Part shown: piece by piece, positions 1 through 2,607 of the stretch | Layout: the number at the start of each line of letters is the position of its first letter | Numbering within the stretch: position 1 is the first letter of the stretch | Assembly (NCBI GenBank): GCA_019638615.1 | Contig: JAHBTL010000012.1 | Location: 85,982 to 149,981 of the forward strand | Source of the DNA: Chitinophagaceae bacterium | GTDB taxonomy: Bacteria > Bacteroidota > Bacteroidia > Chitinophagales > Chitinophagaceae | DNA: 64,000 nt | Reading direction: 5' to 3' | Program-made: the position numbers and the translations under genes | Notes under the pieces: generated by a model | What the model was told of the DNA's origin: nothing | Database searches by the model: none | Seen by the model: the letters and a program-made list of their open reading frames with translations, nothing else

Positions 1-1103
1 CGTATGTATTGATCACCCGCATTCCCAAATATGCCGCCGGGAGTAATAAATACGGATGAACCATACAATACTTCGTCGCTAAGCACATACCCATCGGCGT
101 AACCATCGGGGATACCCGCCCACACAAACATACCGGCCTGCGACCTGGAAAAGGTGCAGTTCAACAATTCCAGCAGCTCAAATACTTTTTCTCTTCTTTT
201 TCTATATACAGCGTTTACGCTGTCGTACCAGTCTTTTGTTAAGCTTAAAGCTTTGGCAGCGGCCAATTGCAGGGGCAAAAACATTCCGCTGTCCATATTA
301 CTTTTAAAGCGCAAAACTTCATCAATTCTTTCTTTTGCCCCGCATAACATTCCTACTCTCCAGCCTGCCATATTCTGCGACTTGCTCAGCGAATTCAGCT
401 CTATAGCAACCTCTTTCGCCCCGTCTACGCTTAAAATACTTAAGGGATTTTCATTCAGGATAAAGCTGTAAGGATTATCGTGCACCAGCAACACATTGTT
501 TGCTTTTGCAAACGCAACCAGTTCTTCAAACAAAGCTTTATCGGGCAATTGTCCTGTAGGCATGTGCGGATAATTCACAAAAAGCAATGCGCTCCTGCCC
601 GTATGGTTTGTTGATAGTTGCTTTGCAAGTTGCCTGAAATCGGGCTTCCAGTTGTTTTTTTCATCCAACGCATATTCCACAATATTGCCGCCGGCCAGCC
701 TGGCCGCACTCCGGTAGGTAGGATAACCGGGATTGGGTACGTATACATTGTCGCCTTCATTAATGTAAGTCATGCAAACGTGCATTATACCTTCCTTGCT
801 TCCGATCAAAGGCAATATTTCTGTATCAGGATTCAAAGCAACACGATACCAGGTTTGATACCATTCCGCGATAGCCTTTCGTAATATGGGAGATCCTTTA
901 TAGTTCTGGTAAGCATGTACGTTGGATCTCGCGCTTTCTTCCTGCAGGGTTTTAATTACATCGGGGTGCGGTGGTAAATCAGGACTACCAATACCCAGGT
1001 TAATGACCTGCTTACCCTGCCTGTTCAGTTCATCTATTTCCCTGAGCTTGGTAGAGAAATAATATTCTCCAATGCCATCCAGTCGTTTTGCCGTTGCAAT
1101 CAT
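1..1103 (-). CDS. PLP-dependent aminotransferase, class I/II (C-terminus beyond window)
   Basis: Fold-type I PLP aminotransferase. It begins at an ATG at 1103, and 367 codons are present before the window edge cuts off the C-terminus. NLGIGSPDLPPHPDV near the N-terminus and SLSKSQNMAGWRVGM are typical of the LL-diaminopimelate/aspartate aminotransferase group; the Lys of S-L-S-K (about residue 241) would hold PLP. The gene starts 33 bases after the prephenate dehydratase stop on the same strand, so both probably share one attenuated transcript. In Bacteroidota this slot is usually an aminotransferase acting with pheA/tyrA, so transamination of an aromatic keto acid or prephenate is inferred; specificity is not readable. 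Confidence 0.9.
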   Translation of the reverse strand, partial: MIATAKRLDGIGEYYFSTKLREIDELNRQGKQVINLGIGSPDLPPHPDVIKTLQEESARSNVHAYQNYKGSPILRKAIAEWYQTWYRVALNPDTEILPLIGSKEGIMHVCMTYINEGDNVYVPNPGYPTYRSAARLAGGNIVEYALDEKNNWKPDFRQLAKQLSTNHTGRSALLFVNYPHMPTGQLPDKALFEELVAFAKANNVLLVHDNPYSFILNENPLSILSVDGAKEVAIELNSLSKSQNMAGWRVGMLCGAKERIDEVLRFKSNMDSGMFLPLQLAAAKALSLTKDWYDSVNAVYRKRREKVFELLELLNCTFSRSQAGMFVWAGIPDGYADGYVLSDEVLYGSSVFITPGGIFGNAGDQYI

Positions 1104-1136: not shown

Positions 1137-2057
1137 TTAAGAATGATGTTTGCCTTTACGGTATACCCCATATATTTTCAGGTCTTCGGTTAAGCTCTTC
1201 ATGTCCTTGATCACCTGGTAAAACCGGTCAAGCGAATCAAATTCCATGTCTGCATGAAATGAATACCTGAAATCGGAGCCCGGTATGGGAGAGCTTTGCA
1301 GCTTACTCAAATTAATACCTCCGTCAGCGATACGCGTCAACACCTTTGCAAGGCTCCCTCTGGAATGATCCGTATGAAAGTTCACCGAAGCTTTGTCGGC
1401 ATTTTCAATTACCTGGGCCAGGTCTTCATGCTGCAATACCAGGAAACGGGTATAATTATTCCGGAGCGTGTGGATATCCGGCTGCAATACATCCAGTCCG
1501 AAAAGCCGGGCTGCCAGGCTGCTGGCTATAGCGGCTATATGTTTGCTTTTATGTTGCTGAAGCTGTTTTGCGCTGAGGGCAGTGTCTTCTGTTTCAACCA
1601 GTTTCCAGCTATACTTATCTAAAAACTCAAGGCATTGCTGCAATGCCATAGGGTGAGAGTGCACTTCGCGGATATCCTGAAGGGCGATTCCGGGATTTAC
1701 CAGCAGGTTTTGCCTTATTTGCAGGTATATCTCTCCAACTATTTTAAGCTTGCTTTTTTGCAATAAATTGTAGTTGGGCAGAATGCTTCCGGCAATCGAA
1801 TTTTCGATGGCCATTATACCGCCATCACTTTCCTTTTTATTGGATGCTTTTTTAACAACTTCCCGGAAAGTATCACAACATATAACCGTTACATTGTTGT
1901 CAAAATAATGATTGGCTGCCACCTGGTGAAAGCTTCCTTCGTAACCCTGTATGGCGATCACCATGGCTGTATCTGTTGCCGGGCTGTCATTCAGCGTAGA
2001 GACCTCTCCCGGTTTTTCTGTTGCTGCCGTTTTAACTGCGCTGCTGTTATTGTTCAT
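1137..2057 (-). CDS. pheA: Prephenate dehydratase
   Basis: Converts prephenate to phenylpyruvate in phenylalanine synthesis, in the cytosol. Of 306 residues, the catalytic part starts at IQGYEGSFHQVAANHYF (about residues 35-51, the family's N-terminal GxxGS-type strand) and holds the conserved T-R-F motif (NNYTRFLVL). A C-terminal ACT domain follows, with GSLAKVLTRIADGGINL and LQSSPIP in place of the usual ESRP-type Phe-binding loop, so feedback inhibition by Phe is likely. About 30 poorly conserved residues precede the domain; the Met at residue 32 is an alternative start. It is the first structural gene after the Phe/Tyr attenuator and is followed by an aminotransferase. Confidence 0.95.
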   Translation of the reverse strand: MNNNSSAVKTAATEKPGEVSTLNDSPATDTAMVIAIQGYEGSFHQVAANHYFDNNVTVICCDTFREVVKKASNKKESDGGIMAIENSIAGSILPNYNLLQKSKLKIVGEIYLQIRQNLLVNPGIALQDIREVHSHPMALQQCLEFLDKYSWKLVETEDTALSAKQLQQHKSKHIAAIASSLAARLFGLDVLQPDIHTLRNNYTRFLVLQHEDLAQVIENADKASVNFHTDHSRGSLAKVLTRIADGGINLSKLQSSPIPGSDFRYSFHADMEFDSLDRFYQVIKDMKSLTEDLKIYGVYRKGKHHS

Positions 2058-2094: not shown

Positions 2095-2174
2095 AAAAAA
2101 TCCCGGCTTTTAGCCGGGACTGATTATGTTGAACTTCTTCGTTTGTTTTATTTTTTCAACAAAAGCAATCCCGG
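2095..2174 (-). promoter_or_regulatory. Phe/Tyr transcription attenuator (antiterminator and terminator)
   Basis: Read on the minus strand. The terminator is an 8-bp perfect stem (TCCCGGCT/AGCCGGGA, 2119-2112 with 2108-2101, 3-base loop) followed by six U (2100-2095). The competing antiterminator pairs 2174-2155, inside the leader-peptide codons, with 2133-2114, which includes six bases of the terminator's 5' arm; 18 of 20 positions pair, one as a wobble. Ribosomes stalled on the Phe/Tyr codons (2213-2184) would leave 2174-2155 free and allow read-through into pheA. Ribosomes reaching the stop codon would cover it and allow termination. The structure is read directly; the mechanism follows classical amino-acid attenuation. 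Confidence 0.9.
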
Positions 2175-2231
2175 TCTACCGGTAAAGTAGAAGTAAAAAA
2201 AGAAAAAACGGTATGCTTTTGAAATTGTCAT
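2148..2231 (-). CDS. Phe/Tyr leader peptide of the pheA operon (27 aa)
   Basis: A short gene of 27 codons plus TAA. Codons 7-16 read YRFFFFYFYF: six Phe and three Tyr in ten codons, the signature of an attenuator leader peptide that senses charged tRNA-Phe and tRNA-Tyr. The C-terminal part (TGRPGLLLLKK) overlaps the 5' arm of the antiterminator. A TAnnTTTG promoter element ends 7 bases before the ATG, so the mRNA is nearly leaderless. The peptide itself probably has no function after synthesis. The sensing of both amino acids suggests the downstream operon serves Phe and Tyr. Confidence 0.92.
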   Translation of the reverse strand: MTISKAYRFFFFYFYFTGRPGLLLLKK

Positions 2232-2238
2232 TGCGAGG

Positions 2239-2246
2239 CAAATGTA
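2239..2246 (-). promoter_or_regulatory. Promoter -7 element (TACATTTG) of the pheA leader
   Basis: Minus-strand TACATTTG matches the Bacteroidota -7 consensus TAnnTTTG. Transcription would start about 2233-2231, at or just ahead of the leader-peptide ATG. No clear -33 TTTG is visible. Confidence 0.65.
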
Positions 2247-2397: not shown

Positions 2398-2607
2398 TTA
2401 TTTATTTACTACAGAATCTGCAGCAGCTTTCAGGCTGTCACCTGCAGCTTTCAGGCTGTCGCCAGCGGCTTTCACTTCTTCTTTAACAGCTTCACCGGCA
2501 GCTTTTACTTCTTCTGTTGCTTTTTCAGCAGCAGCTTCTGTAGATTCAGCAGCGTTGTTGCAGGCAGCAAAAGCGCCTATAGCGAGGATAACCAGTAACT
2601 TTTTCAT
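2398..2607 (-). CDS. Small Ala/Lys-rich lipoprotein with heptad-like repeats
   Basis: 69 residues. A lipoprotein signal peptide (MKKLLVILAIGAFAAC, Cys16 as the lipidated residue) is followed by low-complexity sequence in which units such as EEVKAAGE, DSLKAAG and DSLKAAA recur, so the mature part should be an amphipathic helix or coiled coil on the periplasmic face of the outer or inner membrane. The repeats are also visible at DNA level as near-identical copies of about 24 bases, which makes copy-number change likely. No named family is recognised. It stands alone, with its own terminator. Confidence 0.75.
   Translation of the reverse strand: MKKLLVILAIGAFAACNNAAESTEAAAEKATEEVKAAGEAVKEEVKAAGDSLKAAGDSLKAAADSVVNK

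Follow-up and report, generated by a model that had tools for sequence, protein, structure and literature searches.

Upstream of enterobacterial pheA, the pheL leader combines a short open reading frame (ORF) carrying a run of Phe codons with mutually exclusive antiterminator and terminator structures. Among the Bacteroidota, Bacteroid-trp is a Trp attenuator. Its family, RF01692, is entered for Bacteroidetes in the Weinberg table, as far as the excerpted text shows (PMC2864571), and the accessible passages on Flavobacterium psychrophilum report signs that leader peptides attenuate operons for amino acids (PMC9723704). For Corynebacterium glutamicum, the excerpts describe an aroF leader with Phe-Tyr-Phe and cite a title on an ilvBNC leader that has no ribosome binding site (PMC4046766). 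Within the titles, opening parts of abstracts and passages of the open-licence literature, supplements and subscription journals apart, we recognised no Phe/Tyr attenuator in Bacteroidota.

The leader described here lies at 2246–2095 on the minus strand of the window, a stretch of 64,000 nucleotides from a Chitinophagaceae genome. It is very probably a ribosome-mediated transcription attenuator of the trp/phe type, placed before pheA, aminotransferase, tyrA and DAHP synthase genes, an assignment that draws on sequence comparison and RNA folding models. Like pheL and its Rfam family Phe_leader (RF01859), it has a short Phe-run leader ORF and an exclusive antiterminator and terminator upstream of pheA; unlike them, it has a mixed Phe/Tyr run and a near-leaderless start, belongs to another phylum and falls below the cut-off of the Rfam model. 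At the gathering threshold, Rfam returns no family in the window, riboswitches and T-boxes included. When positions 1950–2450 are searched at E values up to 5, the highest bit score belongs to a sub-threshold match of Phe_leader (28.4 bits, gathering score 55, E 0.01, match 2224–2093). Bacteroid-trp, by the excerpted table, shares its phylum with the window leader, but its model matches neither the window at its gathering score nor positions 1950–2450 at E values up to 5. The attenuation hinted at in the available F. psychrophilum text also belongs to this phylum, and the C. glutamicum aroF leader resembles the window leader in using both Phe and Tyr codons, but it comes from Actinobacteria and, in the excerpt, has only three aromatic residues. 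Judged from sequence, the mechanism is a known one, classical attenuation, and the unusual part is the near-leaderless start.

The earlier note, made from the letters of the window, had listed a 27-codon mini-gene with an aromatic run, an 8-bp terminator with six T, an antiterminator whose arm is the peptide's own C-terminal codons and a TAnnTTTG promoter 7 nt before the leader ATG, and direct reading finds each of them in its place. The features are as follows.

2239–2246, minus strand: −7 promoter box TACATTTG, of the Bacteroidota form TAnnTTTG (direct reading)
2148–2231, minus strand: leader ORF of 27 codons, MTISKAYRFFFFYFYFTGRPGLLLLKK, with ATG at 2231 and stop codon TAA at 2150–2148 (direct reading)
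2214–2221, minus strand: region 1, CAAAAGCA inside codons 4–6, complementary over 8 bp to region 2 at 2167–2160
2184–2207, minus strand: sensor run FFFFYFYF, codons 9–16 (direct reading and predicted stall profile)
2175–2191, minus strand: local hairpin at the end of the run, 2191–2186 with 2180–2175, 6 bp including one G-U (folding)
2155–2174, minus strand: region 2, the antiterminator 5′ arm, encoded by the last codons (RPGLLLLK) (reading, folding and comparison)
2114–2133, minus strand: region 3, the antiterminator 3′ arm, overlapping the terminator 5′ arm (reading, folding and comparison)
2095–2119, minus strand: intrinsic terminator TCCCGGCT/AAA/AGCCGGGA, stem 2119–2112 with 2108–2101, loop AAA, six T at 2100–2095
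1137–2057, minus strand: pheA, prephenate dehydratase, the first large downstream gene (Pfam PF00800, E 1.5e-56)
3–1103, minus strand: class I/II aminotransferase, the second gene, extending past the window edge (PF00155)

The antiterminator pairs 2174–2155 with 2133–2114 at 18 of 20 positions, one of them a G-U, as had been claimed, and it appears as 9 + 2 + 7 pairs in the minimum free energy fold of window RNA that ends before the terminator 3′ arm. Folding of the window leader RNA beats 200 of 200 dinucleotide shuffles (z −3.42). Two elements go beyond the earlier list: a helix between codons 3–8 and the antiterminator arm (hereafter 1:2), weak in the window copy, and the local hairpin at the end of the run. 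Further upstream stands a 69-residue ORF rich in Ala, Lys and Glu (2398–2607, minus strand). By eye, its start resembles that of a lipoprotein; NCBIfam gives it no match, and a terminator-like hairpin comes after it at about 2357–2331.

Past the window, ORFs of locus L031 continue on the same strand with tyrA, a DEAD-box helicase gene, DAHP synthase/chorismate mutase and aroB. The NCBIfam assignments of prephenate dehydrogenase and aroB lie above cut-off, those of a CshA-like DEAD-box RNA helicase and of DAHP synthase with a chorismate mutase domain below it. From gene order and strand, we infer that the genes from pheA to aroB would share one transcript. The helicase gene sits between tyrA and DAHP synthase (L031:3744–5441, minus strand); at four other loci (L015, L016, L020 and L025), a stretch resembling the end of a DEAD-box helicase gene was seen by eye directly upstream of the leader.

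A search for prephenate dehydratase gave matches in 35 of 58 relatives and in 133 of 195 genomes of the family Chitinophagaceae. The family set of 127 pheA upstream regions combines 27 from the relatives search with 100 from the family search, whose 134 match rows included 19 in genomes already present; 100 of the other 115 were used, one fragment and the 14 lowest-ranked rows being left out. The closest named public relatives are Chitinophagaceae, including Agriterribacter humi (78% identity) and a Terrimonas strain (77%). A leader was scored as an ATG-initiated ORF of 12–60 codons with at least 7 Phe/Tyr within some 10 codons, and 123 of the 127 regions have one. None of 635 dinucleotide shuffles and none of the 127 reverse strands does, and a chance ORF was rejected on these counts. 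Among the four misses, L126 has by eye a leader of the same kind with a GTG start, L129 a weaker one (5 of 10 Phe/Tyr), and L131, a second gene copy in its genome, and L133 have no such leader. The stop codon is followed, at a median of 23 nt, by a terminator scoring at least 24 in 122 of the 123 leaders, a score that none of 123 shuffled controls reaches. The earlier note had set itself the check that the aromatic run (here in 123/127 leaders) and the paired arms be conserved in relatives, and across the family this is borne out. Tandem Phe/Tyr leaders, each with its own terminator, precede pheA in L027, L029 and possibly L136.

Three helices compete within the leader: 1:2, formed by the codons before the run and the last-codon arm; 2:3, the antiterminator; and 3:4, the terminator. 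Over 123 loci, the best contiguous 1:2 helix scores 18.4 within its own locus, 15.7 when arms are swapped between loci and 12.8 in shuffles, the own helix beating the swapped one in 97 and the shuffled one in 117. For 2:3, the corresponding scores are 19.9, 17.8 and 12.6, with the own helix ahead of swapped arms in 99 loci and of shuffles in 120. Registers were compared on a MAFFT alignment of the 123 leaders, with pairs taken from the single locus L003, a choice that favours the true register: 69.4% of cells pair for 1:2 (at most 48.4% when slid), 74.8% and 66.2% for the two parts of 2:3 (at most 61.9% and 35.6%) and 90.4% for 3:4 (at most 56.0%). Double-sided changes in this alignment are more numerous than in every slid register for 3:4 alone (78, with no slid register above 30); the 74 found for 1:2 fall within the slid range of 45–86, and the 27 and 39 found for the two parts of 2:3 within 11–29 and 7–48, so this count lends 1:2 and 2:3 no support.

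The arms fall into type A, GCTTT-like (72 loci), type B, TTGTA/GTATTT (29), and others (22). Region 1 pairs with region 2 of the same type about as well from another locus as from its own in type A (own 18.0, other 17.8) and somewhat less well in type B (own 17.3, other 14.9), but with the opposite type it reaches only 11.9 and 12.6. For 2:3, a clear contrast is seen in type B alone (own 19.8, B with A 15.7); A-type arms pair with B-type region 3 (19.4) about as well as with that of other A-type loci (18.8; own 20.5). In the peptides, KAY before the run accompanies LLLL after it, and ANT accompanies VVFA. These residues change in step with RNA pairing, which points to a constraint on the RNA. 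They also bear on a reading in which it is the nascent aromatic peptide bound in the exit tunnel, with or without free Phe or Tyr as effector, and not a shortage of charged tRNA, that arrests the ribosome. A short hydrophobic peptide is indeed kept across the family, as that reading would expect, but the order and number of its Phe and Tyr residues vary freely among the leaders and its flanking residues follow the RNA; we consider an arrest peptide very unlikely. At the end of the run, the local hairpin does better than shuffles in 105 of the 123 loci and better than swapped halves in 100; a role in pausing would be a guess.

To describe switching under an attenuator, we masked the footprint of a ribosome and calculated how strongly the remaining RNA, before the terminator 3′ arm is made, ties up the terminator 5′ arm. 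This energy measure was adopted after an earlier one, the pairing probability of the terminator 5′ arm at the same stage, had been seen to separate the states weakly (family means 0.81 mid-run, 0.74 for naked RNA and 0.60 at the stop codon; 0.90, 0.75 and 0.75 in the window copy); with the ribosome at the stop codon, the arm is still paired at a probability above 0.5 in 85 of 123 loci. By the energy measure, mean predicted antiterminator strength over the 123 loci is 5.7 kcal/mol in naked RNA. It is 8.7 when the ribosome sits on the start codon and 11.8 on the first codon of the run, stands at 10.9 mid-run, and drops to 5.6 on the last codon of the run and 4.4 on the stop codon. The mid-run value exceeds that at the stop codon in 116 of 123 loci and that of naked RNA in 112, and the order of states is unchanged with three footprint sizes. 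Codon by codon, strength is 9.2–11.5 kcal/mol ahead of the run, about 12 where the run starts, and declines to 6.2, 3.1 and 1.4 where it ends. A stall ahead of the run would therefore antiterminate too, and the model accounts for the downstream edge of the run alone: the profile fits a run that ends where stalling would stop helping antitermination, part of the effect being geometry.

Among the stall positions predicted to give over half of the effect, there is a Phe codon in 122 of the 123 leaders and a Tyr codon in 119, which bears on whether Tyr matters at all. Were only the charging of tRNA-Phe sensed, the Tyr codons would be passengers that break up long U runs, and Phe does outnumber Tyr (on average 6.0 against 3.5 codons per peptide; six against two in the window run). 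But both residues occur in all 123 leaders, Tyr far outnumbers Gly, Ser and Trp within the runs (Y 409, against G 42, S 34 and W 10), it is among those effective positions in 119 leaders, and prephenate dehydrogenase is among the genes behind the leader. We regard sensing of Phe alone as unlikely, with a modest chance of being right. The joint sensing of Phe and Tyr put forward in the earlier note gains support, at the level of sequence and model, because prephenate dehydratase and prephenate dehydrogenase stand in one gene run and the predicted effective codons comprise both amino acids.

For full-length window RNA, the predicted probability of the terminator is 0.00 under a mid-run stall, 0.93 and 0.94 once the ribosome has reached the last run codon and the stop codon, respectively, and 0.03 when the RNA is naked. 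The last value counts against the attenuator, for naked window RNA already favours the antiterminator. It would suit a different account, in which a protein, a small-molecule riboswitch or plain partial termination sets read-through and the ORF goes unused; but an ATG-initiated aromatic ORF is kept in 123 of 127 loci despite change in the DNA, and Rfam gives no riboswitch or T-box at cut-off, and we hold read-through independent of translation to be highly improbable. In the family, the median equilibrium probability of the full-length terminator is 0.94–0.95 in all six states (means 0.74 mid-run and 0.91 at the stop codon), so in most relatives the choice between structures would be kinetic, made as the RNA grows. 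Masking region 1 raises mean predicted antiterminator strength across the family from 5.7 to 9.9 kcal/mol, with an increase in 109 of 123 loci, and in the window copy only from 11.9 to 12.3.

Among the properties of a classical ribosome-mediated attenuator, an ORF with a run of codons for the products of the operon is present at 123 of the 127 loci and in none of 635 shuffles, an intrinsic terminator between ORF and operon in 122 of 123 (0 of 123 shuffles), and an exclusive antiterminator that depends on ribosome position in 116 of 123 by prediction only. The comparison thus supports the classical ribosome-stalling reading that the earlier note had offered. In this attenuator, the ribosome would load at an AUG 2–3 nt from the 5′ end of the RNA. 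When charged tRNA-Phe or tRNA-Tyr is scarce, it would stall in the run, at codons 9–16; region 2 would then be free to pair with region 3 (18/20), the terminator 5′ arm would be lost and RNA polymerase could enter the operon. With both tRNAs charged, the ribosome would cross region 2 to the stop codon, leaving region 3 to form the terminator and end transcription. On ribosome-free RNA in many relatives, the 1:2 helix could form and weaken the antiterminator, an effect predicted to be nearly absent in the window copy.

The position of the promoter sets this leader apart. An exact TAnnTTTG box lies at most 60 nt from the ATG in 109 of the 123 family leaders, at 3–12 nt in 97 and most commonly at 7 nt (43), compared with a box at 3–12 nt in 45 of 2,460 shuffles and before 3 of the 62 window ORFs of at least 150 codons. 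According to the passages available, the −7 box of F. psychrophilum spans −12 to −5 (PMC9723704), and promoters of F. johnsoniae with 4 or 5 nt between box and transcription start site (TSS) were counted as probable (PMC6847099). Combined with this published spacing, 7 nt between box and ATG predicts a 5′ untranslated region (UTR) of 2–3 nt, which would put the TSS of the window leader at about 2234 or 2233. Of the earlier description as nearly leaderless, the 7-nt spacing stands and fits the published box-to-TSS distances, and the start position itself is a prediction from that spacing. By the excerpted figures for three species, such starts are uncommon in Bacteroidota: 5.5% leaderless in F. 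psychrophilum (PMC9723704), about 3.7% of 5′ UTRs shorter than 10 nt in Bacteroides thetaiotaomicron (PMC7366714) and, in F. johnsoniae, a 5′ UTR longer than 10 nt in 87% of transcripts with a probable promoter (PMC6847099). The last of these sources also describes, in the part available, Bacteroidota mRNAs without Shine–Dalgarno sequences (PMC6847099).

Outside the family, 40 of 49 new rows from other families of the class were taken, nine being left out; one locus, L174, is cut by a contig end. At 27 of these 40 pheA loci, an aromatic leader is present (at least 6 Phe/Tyr of 10; at least 7 in 22), and a mid-run stall is predicted to give the stronger antiterminator than the stop codon in 23 of the 25 loci scored, two of the 27 having been dropped for weak terminators. 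Because of the 27/40 leaders and the 23/25 switching predictions, the attenuator probably predates the family. Eight further non-family matches from the relatives search were inspected by eye, with leaders in L028, L029 and L033 (cut by a contig start) and none seen in L030, L032, L034, L035 and L036. Near-leaderless box spacing occurs in 0 of the 27 class leaders outside the family: 15 have an exact box, always at 15–50 nt, and 12 have none within 60 nt. We lean towards near-leaderless spacing being a trait of the family, going no further than a lean because those 12 loci lack an exact box. Whether the start matters to the switch is a separate point. An initiating ribosome would cover region 1 (codons 3–8), and loading could in that way help to set the timing of the switch; that the leaderless start is part of the family mechanism in this sense is a tentative idea, which we think somewhat doubtful.

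Other biosynthetic operons were also inspected by eye. Upstream of hisG (L137–L149, 12 loci of the genus and one from another family of the order), each of the 13 loci has a leader containing four to six His codons together with a terminator-like hairpin, the copy in the window's own genome being MIITTHHHHHILPSR. Upstream of trpE (L150–L161), 11 of 12 genus loci have a YWWW leader and a terminator, with MKNIANKYWWWHTNSLRGL in the window's own genome. TTTG stands about 18–23 nt before the ATG of the His leader in the genus and 7–10 nt before that of the Trp leader, whose box deviates from consensus at its first base. The His (13/13) and Trp (11/12) leaders of relatives were counted in favour of the attenuator reading.

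These comparisons document a Phe/Tyr attenuator through the family and into the class, in a phylum for which the open-licence literature, as far as its accessible parts show, has little on classical attenuation. Annotation could gain short leader ORFs of this kind. Were the leaderless start part of the mechanism, the leadered version in other families of the class would offer a natural comparison. Since attenuation requires that the leading ribosome and RNA polymerase advance together, these loci could be used to assay transcription–translation coupling in Bacteroidota.
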